DNA of 64,000 bases from Methanobacteriota archaeon. Its GTDB lineage: Archaea; Thermoplasmatota; Poseidoniia; Poseidoniales; Thalassarchaeaceae. Each line of letters starts with the position of its first letter. Position 1 is the stretch's first letter. The notes under the pieces are model-generated. The model searched no databases. It was given only the letters and a program-made list of their open reading frames with translations, and was not told the origin of the DNA. The position numbers were made by a program, and so were the translations under genes. Below, piece after piece: positions 34,529 to 51,107 of the stretch. The DNA is taken from NCBI GenBank assembly GCA_002716085.1, contig PAYZ01000009.1, positions 29,768 through 93,767 of the forward strand. Reading direction: 5' to 3'.

Positions 34529-36022
34529 ATGAATAGAGCATCCGCAGTTCTTTTGGCCCTAATGATGACTTCCGTGACCCTTGCGGGTTGCACGGGGGAT
34601 GACACCACAATCCAGGAACTCGAGGCCTCGGCTCTGCAGGACCAGCAGAAGATCGAGCAGCTCAACTCGTCAATAGCAAACTCGAGCTTCCAGATCGTAG
34701 ACCTACAGAGCCAGATTTCGGCCCTGAACTCACTGATCGTGAACTTGAATATGCAGATCTTCTCTCTGGACGAGAACCTAACCTCCGAAGAGGAGGCCAG
34801 CGAATCCCTGCAGCAGCAGGTCGACTCCCTTCAAGCCACGAAGGAAGAACTCCTAAGCGAGAAGGCAGCATTGGAGGCTCAGCTAGCGGAGGAATTCCAG
34901 ATGGGTTACGCCCAAGGCGTTGCAGACGCGTCTTCAGATGGGTCCGCAATCAGCACTCTCGATTTAATTCACCAGAGGGGGACCCTAAAGTGCGGCGTGA
35001 AGGAGTCTCAGTGGGGAATGGGCTATCTGGATTGGGAAACTGGAGTCAGATCGGGCTTGGACATAGAGTACTGCAGAGCATTAGCAGCAGCAATAGGCCT
35101 GAACCCGGACACGGATGTCGAGTACATCCTGGCTTCAGGGTCTAACAGGTTCGACCTATTGTCCGGCGGCGATATAGACGTACTGATCAGGACAACGACA
35201 TGGACGGGGTCTAGGGATGCCGAACTCGATGCAGACTTTGCAGCGGTGAACTTCTACGACGGTCAGGGAATGCTGATCCGCGGAGACATGGTCCCAGACG
35301 ATGGGGACTACTCCCCAGCTGACCTAGATGGACTATCGGTATGCGTCGGAGTGGGGACTACCTCTGAAGGAAACCTCGCTGGCTGGGCCGAAACCAATGG
35401 CGTGACCATCACCTCCGTAAGCGTCCAAGATTCTTGGGAGGCCGTAATCAGCCTGTTGGATGGGCATTGCTCCGCAATGACTGGTGACACCTCCGCATTG
35501 GTTGCCAGGAAGTACATCCTGGAGAGCGATGGGTCTTGCGGCCCTGTTGCCGACTCAACCGACGATGACTGCGATGGCCTTTGGATAGCCCCCGAGACGC
35601 TGTCGAAGGAGCCACTGGCAGCCGTGACGAGGGACTACGACTCCGAGTGGAACGAGGTAGTATCTTGGACGTGGTACGGTATGGTCACCGCAGAGGAGCT
35701 GGGAGTCCACTCAGGGAACTTCGCCTCATTTGCCGACTCATGCGTTTGGGGAGGAGCAGACTACAATTACCAGATCTGCACGCTCCTCGAGGAAAGCCTT
35801 GGCCTAGGGACCCCATCAAACCCGCTATCGGATAACTGGATGAAGGACGTTCTCGCTGCAGTGGGCAATTACGGGGAGGCCTACGACCAGTCGTTCTGCG
35901 ACGGCACGTACGATGGGGTTAGTGGGTCAGATGCCATGACGGGATGCTTCTTCCCGAGGTCCGGGACGCTCAACGCCCTAGTGTCCGAGGGAGGGATACA
36001 GTACGCCCCTTCATGGAGATGA
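34529..36022 (+). CDS. Family-3 (polar amino acid) solute-binding lipoprotein with coiled-coil stalk
   Basis: Lipobox VTLAGCTGD, about 100-aa heptad-like region (QQKIEQLNSSIANSSFQIVDLQSQI...), then SBP_bac_3 (GTLKCGVKESQWGMGYLDWETGVRSGLDIEYCRALAAAIG). Confidence 0.85.
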   Translation: MNRASAVLLALMMTSVTLAGCTGDDTTIQELEASALQDQQKIEQLNSSIANSSFQIVDLQSQISALNSLIVNLNMQIFSLDENLTSEEEASESLQQQVDSLQATKEELLSEKAALEAQLAEEFQMGYAQGVADASSDGSAISTLDLIHQRGTLKCGVKESQWGMGYLDWETGVRSGLDIEYCRALAAAIGLNPDTDVEYILASGSNRFDLLSGGDIDVLIRTTTWTGSRDAELDADFAAVNFYDGQGMLIRGDMVPDDGDYSPADLDGLSVCVGVGTTSEGNLAGWAETNGVTITSVSVQDSWEAVISLLDGHCSAMTGDTSALVARKYILESDGSCGPVADSTDDDCDGLWIAPETLSKEPLAAVTRDYDSEWNEVVSWTWYGMVTAEELGVHSGNFASFADSCVWGGADYNYQICTLLEESLGLGTPSNPLSDNWMKDVLAAVGNYGEAYDQSFCDGTYDGVSGSDAMTGCFFPRSGTLNALVSEGGIQYAPSWR

Positions 36023-42634: not shown

Positions 42635-45600
42635 ATGTATAACAAGAAAATGATTGCAATGATGCTTACCCTGAGCATGCTGGCGGCTAGCCTCGCCGGA
42701 TGCGCAGGGGACGAGGACCTAGAGGAGTACGACCCGGCAGCAGACTTGACTGCTGACATCGTCACTTCTGATTGGGATCCAATCCTCGCGAACCTGAACG
42801 ACGGAGAGATGTGTGACGCCATCATATCGGCAATGACCAAGACCGATGAGAGGGACCAGATCGTCGACTTCACCGTTGGCTACTATACCAGCAGCCAAGG
42901 AGTGATCGGCGGAACTGGAGTCGCTACGATTTCCGACGTCTCAGAACTGAATGCCGCTGGGGTGACAATAGGTGTCCAGTCAGGGACAACCTCTGACCTA
43001 TACGCCGATAGCGACCTGTCGATGGCAACAAAGACAGCTTACGCTGACTTCCCATCGGTGATCGCTGCTCTGGACAATGGCGACGTCATGTACGCCATGG
43101 GTGACTCGCCAGTGCTGGCCCTAGAGGGCACACTGATGACCACCTTCTCAGACGAGGTTTTCGGCCTCGCAGTTAGAGAGGATTCGGGAGAGCTCCTGGA
43201 CGCATTGAACGTGGCTATCGCAGCTATCGTAGACTCTGGGGAGTGGGACAACATCGCCATGGAGTGGGACCTCAAGGCCCCTCTGACTGACGACTCCACT
43301 GCTGATACCGCTACTGCATATCCAACGCCTAGCGATGGCAGCACCCTGACCAAGGTCCTGAACGCGGGATCCTTGAAGTTCTGCTCTGACACGTCATACC
43401 CGCCGTTCGAGAACCTCGACTCTGCTGGCGTCGCTGTCGGCTTCGATGTCGACATCGCCAACGCGCTAGTTGACGAGATCGCTGCTCACTACATGGGCAC
43501 AGCGAACCCGATGTTCGAGTATGTGGCTCCAGTGGTTGAGCCCGATGAGCCAGCAGGCCCGACTACAATCAAGCTCGGGTTCCTAAACGACGCTACGGGC
43601 CCGATCTCCGCCTTCGCGGGGGCCTTCACCTACTCGTGGGGGGCTGCTGTGGCAGACCTCAACGCAATGGGCGACGACTACGTCTTCGAGGTAGTAGAGG
43701 CAGATTCCGGCTGCGATGGAACAACCGCAGCCGCCGCCGCTCAGACCCTGGTCGACGCAGGCGTGATCGCTGTAGCAGGAGCAGCATGCTCCGGAGCAAC
43801 CATCGGTGCAAACGCAGTCCTCTCGGCTGCAGGCATCCCAATGCTCTCCTACGCGAGCACATCACCTGCTCTGTCCAATGACACGAACTACCCTCACTTC
43901 TTCAGGATAGTTCCAAGCGACAGCTACCAGTCCAACGTAATGTCCCAGATGGTCGCAGCAGACGGTCACACCAACCCTGCTGTTATCCACATGGTAAACG
44001 CATACGGATCCGGTCTGGCAGAAGCCTTCATCGGATACTGGAGCGGCGACATATGCCTACAGGCTGGATACGACGAGGCCGTTCAGCTAGACTTCTCCGC
44101 CCAGGTGCAAGCAGTAATTGACGCAGGCTGCGACTCAGTAGTCCTCGCTTCTTACTCCGCTGACGGTGCACTGATCGTAGAAACAATGGCTGGAATGGGA
44201 GCAACCCTCCCAACTTACAGCGCAGACGGAATGGCCGGTGACAACTCCCTGGACGACTACACTGCGCCCGCTGCAGCAAACGGACTACAGGTCACCAAGC
44301 CAGGAGCAGCTCCCGGAGCTAGCACTGGAGGTGCCTTCGCAGCCGCTTGTGCAGCTACAGATGCCTGCTCTGGTGGAATATACCAGAATGAGGCATACGA
44401 CGCCGTGATGATGCTCGGCCACGCTGCAATGCACGAAGCCGGGGCCAACATGTCCAACCACATCCAGATGACTGGTAACGCATACGCTGGAGAGAGCGGA
44501 ACTCACACCTTCCAGGCCAATGGAGAGGTTCCAGGACTCTACTACGACGTTTGCACCTACCACCACGTGCCTACTTACGACACGTACTTCAACTGCGACA
44601 GGGGATGGGACGCCACTCAGGGCATCCACACCGTAGCATGGGCAGGAACCACTGTAAAGATCGGATTCCTGAACGACGCATCCGGACCTATCTCGGTCTA
44701 CGCAGACGGATTCAGGGCCGCTTACACGATTGGAATGAATCTGGCTAACACCATCGGATACAGCAACGGAGTCCAGTTCGAGATTGTCGAGGCCGACTCT
44801 GGTTGCGACGGTACAGCCGGAGCCACTGCAGCACAGACACTTGTCGATGCAGGAGTTTGGGCAGTGGTCGGAGCAGCATGCTCCGGCGCTTCCATAGGCG
44901 CCAATGCTGTCCTCGCAGCCGCAGGGATCCCACAGATCTCCTACGCTAGCACTAGCCCAGCTCTGGAGAACGACACGAACTACCCAGGCTTCTACCGAGT
45001 GGTGCCCAGCGACGCCTACCAGGGCGCAGTGATGGCAGACATCGTTGCAGCTGACGGATACAGCAACGTCGCAGTGATCCACATGGTCAACGCCTACGGT
45101 TCGGGTCTGGCAGACACCTTCGTCTCCACGATAGGCTCCGCCAACATATGCACGCAGGTTGGGTACGACGAGACGACCACGACTGACTACAGCAGCATCG
45201 CTCAGGCAGTGATCGACAACGGTTGCGACTCGGTGATGATGGTCTCCTACGCAGCAGATGGCGGAATGATCATCGACGAGCTGGTGGGGAACATGCAATT
45301 CACCGGCCAGATCTACGGAGGAGACGGAATCGCAGAGGAAGGCCTAGGAGCAGACATGGCCGACAACTCCACTGTGGCTGGGATAATCGCATCCAAGCCC
45401 CACAACCCAAACCCAATGGGAGAAGTAGGCTACGTCTTCGCTGCACTCTGTGGCGCTAACCCGGCATGCGCAGGCGGTATCTACACCGCTGAGGCCTTCG
45501 ATGCGGTAACCATAGCTGCCTTCGCAGCCTTCACCTATCTAGCCAACAATGGCACCATATCATCAGAATTGGTGGTTGCCGGAACTGGCCAGGGATGGAA

Positions 45601-45769
45601 CGGAGCAAGCGGCGGAATCAACTTCCTTGCCAACGGAGACATAATCCCCGCAGGATTCTGCATAGGGGAGTTCACCGTCACCACAGCTGATGGAGTCAAC
45701 ACCCTCAGCTACGACTGTGCAAGGTACTGGGACCCAACGAACGGCGTTACTTCAGCAGTAACGGTCTGA
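42635..45769 (+). CDS. Multi-headed solute-binding lipoprotein: permuted SBP family-3 domain + two tandem LivK-like (Peripla_BP_6) domains
   Basis: Lipobox SLAGCAGDE; SBP_bac_3 C-part (DWDPILANLNDGEMCDAIISAMTKT...VGVQ-like IGVQSGTTSDLY...) precedes its N-part (GSLKFCSDTSYPPFENLDSAGVAVGFDVDIANAL); then TTIKLGFLNDATGPIS... and TTVKIGFLNDASGPIS... repeats. Confidence 0.85.
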   Translation: MYNKKMIAMMLTLSMLAASLAGCAGDEDLEEYDPAADLTADIVTSDWDPILANLNDGEMCDAIISAMTKTDERDQIVDFTVGYYTSSQGVIGGTGVATISDVSELNAAGVTIGVQSGTTSDLYADSDLSMATKTAYADFPSVIAALDNGDVMYAMGDSPVLALEGTLMTTFSDEVFGLAVREDSGELLDALNVAIAAIVDSGEWDNIAMEWDLKAPLTDDSTADTATAYPTPSDGSTLTKVLNAGSLKFCSDTSYPPFENLDSAGVAVGFDVDIANALVDEIAAHYMGTANPMFEYVAPVVEPDEPAGPTTIKLGFLNDATGPISAFAGAFTYSWGAAVADLNAMGDDYVFEVVEADSGCDGTTAAAAAQTLVDAGVIAVAGAACSGATIGANAVLSAAGIPMLSYASTSPALSNDTNYPHFFRIVPSDSYQSNVMSQMVAADGHTNPAVIHMVNAYGSGLAEAFIGYWSGDICLQAGYDEAVQLDFSAQVQAVIDAGCDSVVLASYSADGALIVETMAGMGATLPTYSADGMAGDNSLDDYTAPAAANGLQVTKPGAAPGASTGGAFAAACAATDACSGGIYQNEAYDAVMMLGHAAMHEAGANMSNHIQMTGNAYAGESGTHTFQANGEVPGLYYDVCTYHHVPTYDTYFNCDRGWDATQGIHTVAWAGTTVKIGFLNDASGPISVYADGFRAAYTIGMNLANTIGYSNGVQFEIVEADSGCDGTAGATAAQTLVDAGVWAVVGAACSGASIGANAVLAAAGIPQISYASTSPALENDTNYPGFYRVVPSDAYQGAVMADIVAADGYSNVAVIHMVNAYGSGLADTFVSTIGSANICTQVGYDETTTTDYSSIAQAVIDNGCDSVMMVSYAADGGMIIDELVGNMQFTGQIYGGDGIAEEGLGADMADNSTVAGIIASKPHNPNPMGEVGYVFAALCGANPACAGGIYTAEAFDAVTIAAFAAFTYLANNGTISSELVVAGTGQGWNGASGGINFLANGDIIPAGFCIGEFTVTTADGVNTLSYDCARYWDPTNGVTSAVTV
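43561..45769 (+). repeat. Internal duplication: two LivK-like domains within one gene
   Basis: EADSGCDGTTAAAAAQTLVDAGVIAVAGAACSGATIGANAVLSAAGIP vs EADSGCDGTAGATAAQTLVDAGVWAVVGAACSGASIGANAVLAAAGIP. Confidence 0.9.
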
Positions 45770-45860: not shown

Positions 45861-48800
45861 ATGCTAGATGGGCCACGACAAAAGTTCTCCAGCCTGCCTA
45901 GGGGCTATAGAAGACTGATCATAGCAGCTCTCCTGTTCGCAGACTCCAACTTCCTGGGAACTCTAAACGGAGCAGGGGCGCTGAACCTCATCGACTGGGC
46001 AGTCAGGGACAAGCTCCCCAATGACATGGTCTGGCTACTACAATTGGTGGAGTCGATAATCTCGGCATTCATAGTAGTCAAGGTCGTCTTCGATGACTTG
46101 CCTAGCAGCTTCTACAGGACTACAGCAATACTCCTCTCTCCCTTCTTCATGGTCGCAACAACCTTCCTATCACTGGATTTCCTTCTACAGGGACAAGAAG
46201 CAAGCGCCTCGTTCACTCTGGATCTCGTATCAATCTCCACTGGGACCCTAATCTGGTCGTCTACCTACTTGGCAATCGCCATCGGCCTTACTCTCACTTA
46301 CAAGGTGCAGAGGTACGGAAACTTCGCACAATCCGAGCTATTCATGATTGGCATGTTCCTTGCTATGATCATGATTTGGAGCGATTTCCTGTTTCCTATG
46401 GCGAACCTGCAATCCTCCAAGGACGGGGTGTTAACTTGGTCAGTCCTCATTTTCACCATGATTTCCGCATTCATCCTCACTGGAATAGCAGGCGTCATCA
46501 TAGATAGACTAGTATTCCGTGGCTTCAGGGAGAAGAAGTCTAACCCCCAGGTTATGATGATCGCATCATTGGGAGTGGCTTTGATTCTCCGCTCACTGTT
46601 TTTCCTGAGATTCGGCAATGACAGGAACATCTTCGAACCAGAGGGCGACTGGAGGATGCCAACTCAGAGGTGGGAGCTCCCAACGACCAAGCTCAGGCTA
46701 AACCTCGGGGAACGCTCTTTGGAGGAAGGGAGAACTTACTCCCACTTCAACTGCGAGCAGACAGGCACAGACGAAGTCACGAGCGAGCCGATACTAGCCA
46801 GGATAGTTAGCGAATCGTCAAAACCGGTCTACGAGATCTACGACACAACAACCGACTGCATCACCCAGGCGACTACGAATTACCCATATCACAAGGGAGC
46901 AGTCCCATTCGTAATCTTCTCCTCCGTGCTGCTGCTATTGCTCCTCCTAAACAAGACCAGGTTAGGTAGGAGGATGAGGGCGGTTGCCGACAACCCCGAG
47001 CTAGCAGCAAGCAGCGGCATCAACGTGGAGGGGGTTCAGCTGACAAGCGCATTCCTCTCAGCTGGGATTTCAGGGATGGGCGGGGCAGTATTCGCCATGA
47101 CCCTGCGGTACAACCCAGAGACAGCTTTCGCACTCCTTCTTCCTTCATTCGCAATCATCGTCCTAGGGACAATCGGCTCAATACCCGGGGCGATCGTGGG
47201 CTCACTAGTCGTCGGATTCGTCAGGGCACTATCGTCACCAGTACTGATTGGGATCGGCCTCCCCCTCGGTAGATCGAACTACACTGCAATGGACGGCGTG
47301 ATGCCCTACATCTTCCTAGTGGCAATCCTCATGATAATGCCCCAAGGGATTGGTGATGCCTACGAGAAATGGAAGATTGACAGGCTGAGAAGAAGGAAGG
47401 CGCCAGTTCCCCAGGAGGAGGACGGCGTAGCCAAGGCTCTAGCAATTCTCCCTACCGGGGCCTTGGGCCTACACCATTGGTGGAGGAACAGGGGTCACAG
47501 GACCCAGACATTCTCCGCCATCGCAATCTCCTCCTACGTCATTCACAGGCTAGGGGCATTCGTCGGGAGGAACTCTTTCGCTGACGGAGCGTGCTCAGAA
47601 GCATGCGAATCAGACCCATTCGCGGAGACCAACCTCGCGGTCCTTACAGGGAGGAATGATGGAACTCTTCTCCTGGAGGACTCGCCCTTGGATCAGTCAA
47701 GCCTTCTGAGCCAGAAGAGCCCACCCAGCGACATCCCATTCGAAACCGAGCAGTGGCTATCGAATTCCATCTCGGAGATGCACGAGTCCTGGCTTAGCAT
47801 GATGAAATTCGAGATAGAGCTGGTTAACTTCATCGCCAACGTGGGTGAGCTGGTCTGGCCCCTAGTTCCTATCCTCCTCTGGGCGTACGCAATATTCGAA
47901 GTATTCGGGCCGTCAAGGAAAGCACACTCCATTCCGTTTTTTGCCCGATATCAAGAGTGGGCAAGCAGAGCCTCGGAGACCCTCTCAGCTAGAATCGGGG
48001 GGCTTAGAGTCCGTTGGGATGAATTCGGTAGAAAGCATCAAGACGCCATAGATGACATTGCTAAGAGGATTAGGAAACCTCTGACTTCCACTATGCAGGG
48101 TGCGTCGGATTGGGCTAGTAGGGCCTCCGAAAAGGCACTCGATACCCTCACCATGGGTTCAGAACGGCACAAGAGGGGCATCCAGATGTACGGTAGGGAG
48201 AGCAGCATCGGGTCTTGGATCCTGTTCTCGGTCCTGTTGCTGACTCTGATCATGTTCCTGGTTTGGCTTCCTATCGCAGAGTCGGACGACTTCAGATTCA
48301 AGAAGGTCCTACAAGTCTCGAACGTCCTACTTACCCTCTCAATATTCATTCTGATGGCCTTCTCTCTAAACCTCCATACCGGGTACACGGGAATGGTAAA
48401 CTTCGGTATTATCTTCTTCGTCTCAATAGGGGCCATCACGGTGGGCATTCTTACTGCCCCAGAGGATCTGCACGGCTATGGCTGGGGGATCCTTCCAGCC
48501 ACAATTGTCGGAATCGTTCTTGCCGGGATTTTCGGATGGGCCCTAGCATATCCGACTGCTAGGCTGAGGACTGATTACTTCGCAATAGTGACAATCTCCC
48601 TAGGTGAGATAGTAAGGGTCCTCCTAGGCGGCGAGCCTCTTCTCAGGGTCGGGTCAATTGGCCTTGGAATAGGTATTGCCGCATACCCCTTGCCATTGGA
48701 GAACTGGTGGTTCTGCGGGCCAAATGAGATTGGCCCTGGCACGCAATGGGCAGATCCCGCCGACTGCCGGGACGACGCTCTTCTGGTAGACTCACCGGCC

Positions 48801-49601
48801 TACCAAATGGGGGAAATCCTAAGCCTAGGTCAGCCAGCTCCTTACATGTTCATTCTTATGGTAATCTCGATAATCTCCGTGATTGTTGTATGGAAGATGC
48901 TGTCAACCCTGATTTCTTCTCCTTGGGGCAGGGTCCTGAAAGCGATAAGAGAGGACGAGGAGGTCGCTCAGCACCACGGTCATGACATCCTAACCCACAA
49001 GGCATCGAGCCTCGCGCTAGGCGCATCAATAGCTGGACTAGCAGGAGCGCTATGGGCTTGGAAGCTAACCGGTTTCGAACCCACATTCATGTCTCCAGCC
49101 AAATCCACATTCTTGGTCTGGGCCGCATTCATTATTGGAGGTGCGTCGAACAACAGAGGCATGATCGTGGGGGCATTCATCATCGTCCTAATGGAGTTCG
49201 TATTCAACGTCCTAGTTGCGGGCCAAAGCTCCCCAGACCTGCCTCTGCACTCTACCGCGCAGAGGATAGACGGCCTCTTCGAGTGGTTAGTCTCCAGTCA
49301 GTGGGAGGCATTCCAGGTATTCCTCCTAATGGCACTGGTGGGCTTCGCTATTAGATCCCAGAGAATCCTCGAGATAGGGGCCTCAGGTTGCGCAATCTTC
49401 GCCTTCACAGCTGTGGTTCTTGGAGAGAGGTCAATCAGAGAGTCCTTCCTTTTCGGTGAAATATCCGCGGACATGGTTTACGTCAAACTCCTGCTTGTAG
49501 GTTGTCTGATGCTTTTCTCCCTCAAGTTCAATCCCAAGGGACTCTTGCCAGAGGTTCCGAATAGGCCCCAGCGCCCAATAGGTGGTGATTGCTCTGAGTA
49601 G
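45861..49601 (+). CDS. Fused LivH-LivM branched-chain amino acid-type ABC permease
   Basis: N-half LivH-like (STYLAIAIGLTLTYKVQRYGNFAQSELFMIG; GTIGSIPGAIVGSLVVG), C-half LivM-like (LNLHTGYTGMVNFGIIFFVSIGA; YPTARLRTDYFAIVTISLGEIVR; LIRED-like AIREDEEVAQHHGHD). Confidence 0.9.
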   Translation: MLDGPRQKFSSLPRGYRRLIIAALLFADSNFLGTLNGAGALNLIDWAVRDKLPNDMVWLLQLVESIISAFIVVKVVFDDLPSSFYRTTAILLSPFFMVATTFLSLDFLLQGQEASASFTLDLVSISTGTLIWSSTYLAIAIGLTLTYKVQRYGNFAQSELFMIGMFLAMIMIWSDFLFPMANLQSSKDGVLTWSVLIFTMISAFILTGIAGVIIDRLVFRGFREKKSNPQVMMIASLGVALILRSLFFLRFGNDRNIFEPEGDWRMPTQRWELPTTKLRLNLGERSLEEGRTYSHFNCEQTGTDEVTSEPILARIVSESSKPVYEIYDTTTDCITQATTNYPYHKGAVPFVIFSSVLLLLLLLNKTRLGRRMRAVADNPELAASSGINVEGVQLTSAFLSAGISGMGGAVFAMTLRYNPETAFALLLPSFAIIVLGTIGSIPGAIVGSLVVGFVRALSSPVLIGIGLPLGRSNYTAMDGVMPYIFLVAILMIMPQGIGDAYEKWKIDRLRRRKAPVPQEEDGVAKALAILPTGALGLHHWWRNRGHRTQTFSAIAISSYVIHRLGAFVGRNSFADGACSEACESDPFAETNLAVLTGRNDGTLLLEDSPLDQSSLLSQKSPPSDIPFETEQWLSNSISEMHESWLSMMKFEIELVNFIANVGELVWPLVPILLWAYAIFEVFGPSRKAHSIPFFARYQEWASRASETLSARIGGLRVRWDEFGRKHQDAIDDIAKRIRKPLTSTMQGASDWASRASEKALDTLTMGSERHKRGIQMYGRESSIGSWILFSVLLLTLIMFLVWLPIAESDDFRFKKVLQVSNVLLTLSIFILMAFSLNLHTGYTGMVNFGIIFFVSIGAITVGILTAPEDLHGYGWGILPATIVGIVLAGIFGWALAYPTARLRTDYFAIVTISLGEIVRVLLGGEPLLRVGSIGLGIGIAAYPLPLENWWFCGPNEIGPGTQWADPADCRDDALLVDSPAYQMGEILSLGQPAPYMFILMVISIISVIVVWKMLSTLISSPWGRVLKAIREDEEVAQHHGHDILTHKASSLALGASIAGLAGALWAWKLTGFEPTFMSPAKSTFLVWAAFIIGGASNNRGMIVGAFIIVLMEFVFNVLVAGQSSPDLPLHSTAQRIDGLFEWLVSSQWEAFQVFLLMALVGFAIRSQRILEIGASGCAIFAFTAVVLGERSIRESFLFGEISADMVYVKLLLVGCLMLFSLKFNPKGLLPEVPNRPQRPIGGDCSE

Positions 49602-50391
49602 CATAGCGCTGAAGGTGGATAGCCTCCGAAAGGAATTCGGAGGCCTAGTAGCTGTGAGGAACGTCACCTTCGAAGTAGAAGAGGGAGAGTTCGTCGGCCT
49701 CATAGGTCCAAACGGCTGCGGAAAATCCACCACATTCAACTGCATCAGCGGTCTACTTGACCAGACAAGTGGCAGCGTCGAGATGTTCGGCCAAGACGTA
49801 TCTGGACTCAGGCCAGACCAGATTCAGAACCTGGGAATGACTCGAACATTCCAGCACACCAATCTCTGGAGGCAGATGACAGTCATCGAGAACCTACTAG
49901 TGCCACCCCGCAATCAGTTCGGGACATCATTCAGAGAACTCCTCCAGTCCCTATTCATCCCCTATGGGAAGTCCGAGGAGGACCGACTAACCAGAGCATT
50001 CGAGGTTCTAGACCAGCTCGAGGTCCCTCACATGGCGAACAATCTCACCAGCGAGCTCTCAGGCGGCCAGAGCAAGCTAGTCGACATTGGCAGATCAATG
50101 ATGGGCGACCCCCGACTACTGCTCCTGGACGAGCCAGTAGCAGGGGTGGCAGGACCTCTAGCGATGAAGATCTTCAACAACCTTAGGAGGATCGTCGACG
50201 AGACAGGGATATCCATCCTAATCATCGAGCATAACATGGACTTCATCCTCAGGCAAGGTGTGGACCGAATCATCGTGATGAACGAGGGTCAGGTCCTCAT
50301 GCAGGGATCACCAGACGAAGTAAGATCGAACAGAGAGGTCATAGAGGCATACCTCGGAGCAGCTGGGGATCACCGGGGGGAAGAGGAATGA
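49582..50391 (+). CDS. livG: Branched-chain amino acid-type ABC transporter ATP-binding protein
   Basis: GLIGPNGCGKSTTFNCISG, ELSGGQSKLVDIGRSMMGDPRLLLLDEPVAG. Confidence 0.93.
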   Translation: MVIALSSIALKVDSLRKEFGGLVAVRNVTFEVEEGEFVGLIGPNGCGKSTTFNCISGLLDQTSGSVEMFGQDVSGLRPDQIQNLGMTRTFQHTNLWRQMTVIENLLVPPRNQFGTSFRELLQSLFIPYGKSEEDRLTRAFEVLDQLEVPHMANNLTSELSGGQSKLVDIGRSMMGDPRLLLLDEPVAGVAGPLAMKIFNNLRRIVDETGISILIIEHNMDFILRQGVDRIIVMNEGQVLMQGSPDEVRSNREVIEAYLGAAGDHRGEEE

Positions 50392-51107
50392 CCAGGGTTC
50401 TTGAGGTAACAGGCCTCGAAGGTGGGTACGGGGCAGTCCAGATACTATACGGCATAGATATGCACGTCGATGAGGGCGAGTTTGTCACCATCATCGGGCC
50501 AAACGGATGCGGTAAGTCCACATTCATCAAAACCATATTCGGAATAGCCTCTTACTACAGTGGGGGTATTGAATACAGGGGTCAAGACGTTTCTGGATGG
50601 AGGACGGATCAACTAGTAAACAGAGGGATCGCTTATGTCCCCCAGGTTGACAACGTATTCCCATCACTCTCAGTGAAGGAGAACCTGCAGATGGGGGGCA
50701 ACAGCCTCTCACAGGGAGAACTTAACGAAAGGATCGAGAGATCGTTGGAGATGTTCCCAGACTTGAGAAACAGGGAACATGACCTAGCAGCATCTCTTTC
50801 CGGGGGTGAAAGGCAGATGCTCGCGATATCACGAGCGCTGATCTCTGACCCTAGGTTCCTCCTTCTGGACGAACCCACAGCCGCCCTCTCCCCTCTCTAC
50901 CAACAGCAGATCATCGAGAGCATAGACTCGCTTAGAGGACAGGGAATCACCATTCTGATAGTGGAGCAGAACGCAAGGCTGTCTCTAGCTAGGTCCGATA
51001 GAGGATACATAATGGCGAACGGGCAGATAGTCCACACTGGAGATGCAAAGCACATCCTCAGCGACCCAGAGATTGGAGAGTATTTCCTCGGCAACAAGGA
51101 CGATTGA
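50388..51107 (+). CDS. livF: Branched-chain amino acid-type ABC transporter ATP-binding protein
   Basis: TIIGPNGCGKSTFIKTIFG, SLSGGERQMLAISRALISDPRFLLLDEPTAAL; overlaps livG stop. Confidence 0.93.
   Translation: MTRVLEVTGLEGGYGAVQILYGIDMHVDEGEFVTIIGPNGCGKSTFIKTIFGIASYYSGGIEYRGQDVSGWRTDQLVNRGIAYVPQVDNVFPSLSVKENLQMGGNSLSQGELNERIERSLEMFPDLRNREHDLAASLSGGERQMLAISRALISDPRFLLLDEPTAALSPLYQQQIIESIDSLRGQGITILIVEQNARLSLARSDRGYIMANGQIVHTGDAKHILSDPEIGEYFLGNKDD

Follow-up and report, generated by a model that had tools for sequence, protein, structure and literature searches.

Residues ~40-292 of a 1044-aa protein from a Thalassarchaeaceae (marine group IIb) genome very probably represent a genuine circular permutant, conserved among relatives, of a family-3 (SBP_bac_3) amino-acid-binding domain. 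The protein is encoded by one gene with an ATG start at 42635-45769 (+) of the window, that is, of the whole 64,000-nucleotide stretch analysed, which is part of contig 10 in a genome of 1.58 Mb. The rearrangement is unusual in evolution and is real rather than a sequencing error, and a related domain of the same class carries a different cut.

Architecture of the gene and its operon

The features of the locus, with the evidence for each, are as follows.

42635-42703 (+), signal peptide with lipobox LAGC and Cys23 (sequence; kept in homologues matching from residue 1)
42752-43273 (+), SBP_bac_3 segment 1, residues 40-213 (PF00497 model 37-129, PDB sequence matches, AF2 secondary structure)
43274-43336 (+), linker that connects the former C-terminus with the former N-terminus, about KAPLTDDSTADTATAYPTPSD (homology to the hinge-cut linker in sequence and length)
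43337 to ~43510 (+), SBP_bac_3 segment 2, residues 235-292 (PF00497 model 1-36, 50% identity to the L078 start, AF2 elements)
43562-44647 (+), LivK-type domain 1, Peripla_BP_6/ANF_receptor (Pfam; limits by motif)
44648-45766 (+), LivK-type domain 2, Peripla_BP_6/ANF_receptor (Pfam; limits by motif)
45861-49601 (+), LivH-LivM fused permease (Pfam BPD_transp_2, two stretches)
49582-50391 (+), LivG-type ATPase (Pfam ABC_tran, BCA_ABC_TP_C)
50388-51107 (+), LivF-type ATPase (Pfam ABC_tran)

Segment 1 comprises beta2-alpha2-beta3 of lobe I, the whole of lobe II and the C-terminal helices. After the linker of about 20 residues, segment 2 brings the leader helix, beta1, the ligand loop SDTSYPPF and alpha1, whose canonical place is the start of the domain. 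The lipobox cysteine would give the protein an N-terminal lipid anchor. A PurM-like gene, named by eye, lies upstream and is divergent. With its Peripla_BP_6 domains and LivHMGF operon, the gene has the makings of a HAAT (LivK) receptor; the HisM/GlnP-type permease that usually neighbours SBP_bac_3 is absent, and LivHM is found instead.

A rotated segment order

The whole protein matches SBP_bac_3 (PF00497) with 78.2 bits against a cut-off of 26.4, in two pieces. Positions 37-129 of the model fall at 42743-43267 and positions 1-36 only afterwards, at 43373-43480, both pieces being in a single frame uninterrupted by stops. The domain therefore lacks the canonical order of the family, in which the start of lobe I comes first. 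The original prediction of one circularly permuted SBP_bac_3 domain is borne out by this order, by the single frame and by a full-length alignment after rotation. Both segments also lie where it had placed them, at residues ~40-213 (42752-43273) and 235-~292 (43337-~43510). Its range of 42740-43500 was right in location and slightly short in extent, the domain being best given as 42743-~43510.

Further evidence comes from L078 (G022:C19), a relative with canonical order encoded as a single gene, an 894-aa frame, on a 9.9-kb contig. Among the canonical proteins compared, L078 was the nearest to both pieces (187 versus 75 bits and 62 versus 43 bits). Residues 43-211 are 57% identical to its second part over 169 aa and residues 235-286 are 50% identical to its first part over 52 aa. 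When the pieces were joined after rotation, they gave a single alignment with L078 at 53% identity over 234 columns (230 bits). Since each piece matches the same protein and the two align as one once rotated, chance is excluded, and the rotated order stands against clear homologues of common ancestry, as in natural permutants generally. A PDB sequence search gave the same picture: the native sequence returned split matches and the rotated sequence single end-to-end matches, with slight gains in score (104.5 to 110.5 bits for 6h30 and 72.1 to 77.1 bits for 4zv1).

Predicted structure and ligand site

AF2 run with 35 close homologues gave a pLDDT of 71.6, with lobe I poorly predicted. Once the alignment also included a handful of distant family-3 pieces, the pLDDT rose to 83.0 (pTM 0.75), the five models ranging from 78 to 83. 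In the numbering of the model, which is the protein residue minus 29, the first part contains beta2 (10-15), alpha2 (18-27), beta3 (33-38), lobe II and the final helices (157-181), and the second part a leader helix (208-215), beta1 (217-222) and alpha1 (241-258). Beta2 of the model is thus contributed by the N-terminal segment, and the predicted order of elements is that expected of a permutant. Sequential Foldseek alignments matched AncCDT-1, GlnPQ and LAO structures with E values of 1e-8 to 1e-10, the best being AncCDT-1 and the GlnPQ domains at about 1e-10; these alignments cover the sequential part only, about 175 residues, with TM scores of 0.5-0.6. From the sequence and the model, beta1-alpha1 at the end of the chain would complete lobe I. 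The chain would then run from beta2 through the rest of lobe I, lobe II and the linker to beta1-alpha1.

The ligand site was assessed by alignment to LAO, whose sequence was verified against 1laf, using 13 positions that we take, as in LAO/HisJ generally, to be its ligand contacts. Eleven of the 13 are strictly invariant in 36 permuted homologues, and both segments are represented: in LAO numbering, D11, Y14, F52(W), S69, S72(T), R77, L117(Q), S120(T), T121, Q122(S) and D161. In the numbering of the window protein, segment 1 supplies W47, S65, T68, R73, Q115, T118, T119, S120 and D157, and segment 2 supplies D252 and Y255. Of the remaining contacts, A66 is the same in 34 of the 36 homologues and N260 varies among S, N and A. 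The aligned positions hold the ingredients of an amino-acid site, namely the carboxylate-binding Arg, the amine-binding Asp, the aromatic residue and the Ser/Thr contacts. In both pieces dN is 0.13-0.28, and dS is near or beyond saturation.

Cysteines C60 and C250 co-occur perfectly: window-type domains, f1 hinge-cut proteins and L078 have both, and family f3 and the outgroups have neither. A disulfide between them had been proposed from the sequence. Because alignment to LAO puts them at opposite ends of parallel neighbouring strands, we do not endorse that bond and regard it as doubtful.

Conservation among relatives

A search for homologues with the same segment order, suggested as a check of the permutation, found the rotated domain, with its segments collinear, in 53 of the 100 genomes compared within the family (the window's own and 52 of 99 further genomes), which span eight genera. 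The order was seen in 43 named public contigs, two of them cut at a contig end and three from single-cell genomes (L038, L044, L061). LivHM lies downstream in all 30 loci with enough flanking sequence, and PurM is present at 40 of the 43 loci, the remaining ones ending too early. In a survey of 243 genomes of the phylum, the reversed PF00497 pattern of the window type occurred in the window's family only, a count that leaves aside hinge-cut proteins (see below), which PF00497 reports as canonical. The permuted alignment was also used to scan viral_contigs, where no relative turned up.

Relatives with a single LivK domain and no SBP_3 match occur in g10 and in families f2 and f3, so the SBP_3 domain was probably inserted between the signal peptide and LivK. 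The passages on marine group IIb (MGIIb) receptors in PMC6336850 (Nat Commun 2019) place branched-chain and L-amino-acid ABC-transporter receptors in most MGIIb subclades and, within those passages, make no mention of segment order.

A second rotation in the same class

The window's family also contains a second rotation, as a separate gene in 12 genomes (g8, g9 and g11) with frames of 331-348 aa. Here the chain is cut at the inter-lobe hinge and runs from lobe II through a linker to the whole of lobe I and a C-terminal hydrophobic tail. The ligand residues of these proteins are degenerate. The loci examined adjoin a propeller-like/HisM-type permease fusion and a GlnQ-like ATPase, with an apparent glutamate dehydrogenase (by eye) farther out. 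The hinge-cut order recurs in a further family of the class, f3 (probably the MGIII order), where it was seen in six genomes and the ligand motifs are intact. In the two f3 loci examined, a propeller-like/HisM-type permease fusion and an ATPase again adjoin the gene, with no other receptor seen beside them. The permeases fused to an N-terminal propeller-like region (L136, L137, L139, L199 and L200; HisM/GlnP type, 613-800 aa) adjoin permuted SBP_3 genes in both Thalassarchaeaceae and f3.

The linkers of the two rotations are nearly identical and align without gaps, as illustrated by VVLTDDTNANTATEYP of an f3 hinge-cut protein (L168) and VVLTDDRDADTATSYP of a window-type protein (L037). The match continues through the expected junction (VVLTDDxxAxTATxYP), and window-type and f3 proteins match continuously through lobe II, the linker and beta1-alpha1 at about 50%.

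A candidate third rotation was seen outside the archaea. A contig with a viral classification (IMGVR_UViG_3300028326_000340) encodes, at L124:1501-2448, an SBP_3 lipoprotein of bacterial (Clostridia-like) character in a 315-aa frame. The C-terminal strand and helices of this protein come first and the rest follows, with a stop codon just past the expected cut; aligned with a canonical receptor from Monoglobus, it matches in two pieces whose order is swapped. As the stop is the contig's last codon, this may be an end artefact.

Origin of the rotations

In the IQ-TREE phylogeny, f1 hinge-cut, f3 hinge-cut and window-type domains form one clade together with L078 (UFBoot 92), within which f3, the window type and L078 group at 100, as do the window type and L078. 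FastTree makes L078 the sister of the window type. The tail and leader of L078 resemble the two halves of the window linker. That the rotated forms make one clade with L078 inside it suggests one fusion followed by re-cutting.

We accordingly favour, with some reserve, a rotation that began with a head-to-tail fusion of the domain ends in the class ancestor, through a tandem pair or its equivalent. Thalassarchaeaceae would then have gained an opening of the chain between alpha1 and beta2; the related binding proteins that adjoin HisM-type permeases would have gained theirs at the inter-lobe hinge. Origin by duplication and truncation, as envisaged in the original prediction, is consistent with the evidence; no tandem SBP_3 form was seen in Poseidoniia among the PF00497 matches. 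The simplest reading is one ancestral fusion of the ends with different later openings, on which L078 would either have returned to canonical order or have survived from a tandem. Because L078 is one gene on a short contig, our claim about origin stays moderate. The fuller scheme is tentative, falling just short of an even chance: a single linker closure, at least two re-openings (alpha1/beta2 and hinge) and, in L078, one cut within the linker that restored the canonical order. Changes of membrane anchor may have driven it, the window type having an N-terminal lipid and the hinge-cut types a C-terminal hydrophobic tail.

The window type and the hinge-cut type might instead have been permuted independently, their linkers being alike because the leader and tail of their canonical ancestors were alike. 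The likeness of the L078 tail and leader to the linker halves fits this, as does the place of L078 beside the window type in the trees. Against it, the window and f3 linkers align ungapped through the junction, and a placement of L078 outside the rotated clade is rejected by the AU test (p 0.034 and 0.040), although not by KH and SH; these tests do not fix the position of L078 relative to the window type. We consider independent permutation the less likely reading.

Function and alternative readings

Family-3 receptors normally serve PAAT permeases and not the LivHM type. Site conservation and gene order point to a permuted domain whose cleft likely binds an L-amino acid in the customary way. 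Anchored by lipid, it would be the first of three receptor modules in the protein, joined to two LivK-type receptors feeding LivHMGF. Its fusion to a HAAT-type receptor, and the existence of relatives with LivK only, could also mean that the domain no longer binds solute and acts as a structural spacer or docking module for the LivK domains. This is improbable given that the ligand residues are invariant and that in f3 the hinge-cut domain is the only receptor seen near its own permease and ATPase.

The remaining readings deny that there is one rotated fold. The linker between the pieces and the two partial Pfam matches would suit a pair of independent, degenerate partial domains such as tandem relics, the alternative named in the original prediction. 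Each model position is nevertheless represented about once across the two pieces, both pieces come from the same canonical lineage with a shared nearest relative, both have low dN with saturated dS, and the AF2 model orders elements in both, in permuted succession. Above all, ligand positions are invariant on both pieces (12 of the 13 being kept overall), and we rejected this very improbable reading on that ground. That a gene of canonical or tandem form was collapsed or misjoined in assembly, or frameshifted, might be suspected in so fragmented a genome (27 contigs, 81.6% completeness, 5.85% contamination). The frame is uninterrupted, however, and order and neighbours are alike in dozens of independent assemblies, including the three single-cell genomes. 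Since the rotated order recurs with PurM and LivHM as neighbours, assembly error was rejected as well, and we give it practically no weight.

Relation to known systems

The window protein resembles SBP_bac_3 receptors (LAO, HisJ, GlnH, ArtJ, the GlnPQ SBDs) in sequence family, ligand residues, predicted elements and export signal, and differs from them in its rotated order, its LivK fusion and its LivHM rather than HisM-type neighbour. With LivJ/LivK (HAAT) it shares two Peripla_BP_6 domains and a LivHMGF operon, to which it adds the N-terminal permuted family-3 domain. Tandem family-3 domains in one chain are known from GlnPQ (6h30) and were also seen in another Thermoplasmatota family, where three SBP_3 copies are fused to a HisM-type permease (L164 in G302, L165 in G264). 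Such tandems are the kind of intermediate that a duplication model needs; unlike the window domain, each of their copies is canonical in order.

Natural circular permutation usually comes to light in retrospect, when remote structures are compared. In this one archaeal class, near relatives (about 50-57% identity between pieces) have the domain in canonical, lobe-I-cut and hinge-cut order, with a shared linker, so that the route of permutation can be reconstructed and tested. The case bears on how binding proteins gain new anchor points and fusion partners, and the natural cut sites could be used in biosensor engineering. As automatic annotation calls such genes partial or ordinary SBP_3, more may be hidden.

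Natural permutation in ABC receptors as such is already established (PMC4990184; PMC2395249). TpMglB-2 (Tp0684, a 'Type Ic/Cluster Bc' glucose receptor) is likewise a tethered ABC receptor with a natural permutation inside one lobe: strands of its N-lobe are shifted to the C-terminus and ligand binding is retained (PMC4990184). It differs in being a sugar receptor of Type I, found in treponemes and Gram-positives, from an unrelated family and with one cut site reported; the window domain is no Type I/Cluster B sugar-binding fold, its sequence and structure matches being all family-3, type II. The authors of that study suggested that permutation lessens the strain that arises when a receptor is tethered close to its ligand residues (PMC4990184), an idea that the window protein would fit, since its lipid anchor no longer lies ahead of beta1 and the ligand loop. 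The glycine-betaine receptors (2B4L, 1R9L, 1SW1; PMC2395249) are a case of permutation among type II binding proteins. Those forms are <24% identical and known from structures, whereas here the orders differ among near relatives of one class. For family-3 (SBP_bac_3) itself we found no report of permutation in the open-licence papers searched. What appears to be new is that permutation occurs in family-3, that it has become fixed in much of an archaeal family, that two cut sites go with the same linker, and that the clade includes a form with canonical order.

Some further receptors were noted along the way. The canonical SBP_3 domain of L078 is embedded between LDL-receptor class A-like repeats (xCDNGEEIPASWxNDGExDCxDGSDE). 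LivK-type proteins that carry numerous Asp-rich repeats of TSP3-like type and are anchored at the C-terminus are encoded at L153 (G000:C7) and L163 (G000:C3); the first ~170 residues are exactly alike on the two contigs and then diverge, which may reflect strain variants or a mis-join. The window itself encodes a second SBP_3 lipoprotein at 34529-36022 (+), of canonical order and with a coiled-coil-like N-terminal insert, and a paralogue of it lies on contig C18 (L003).
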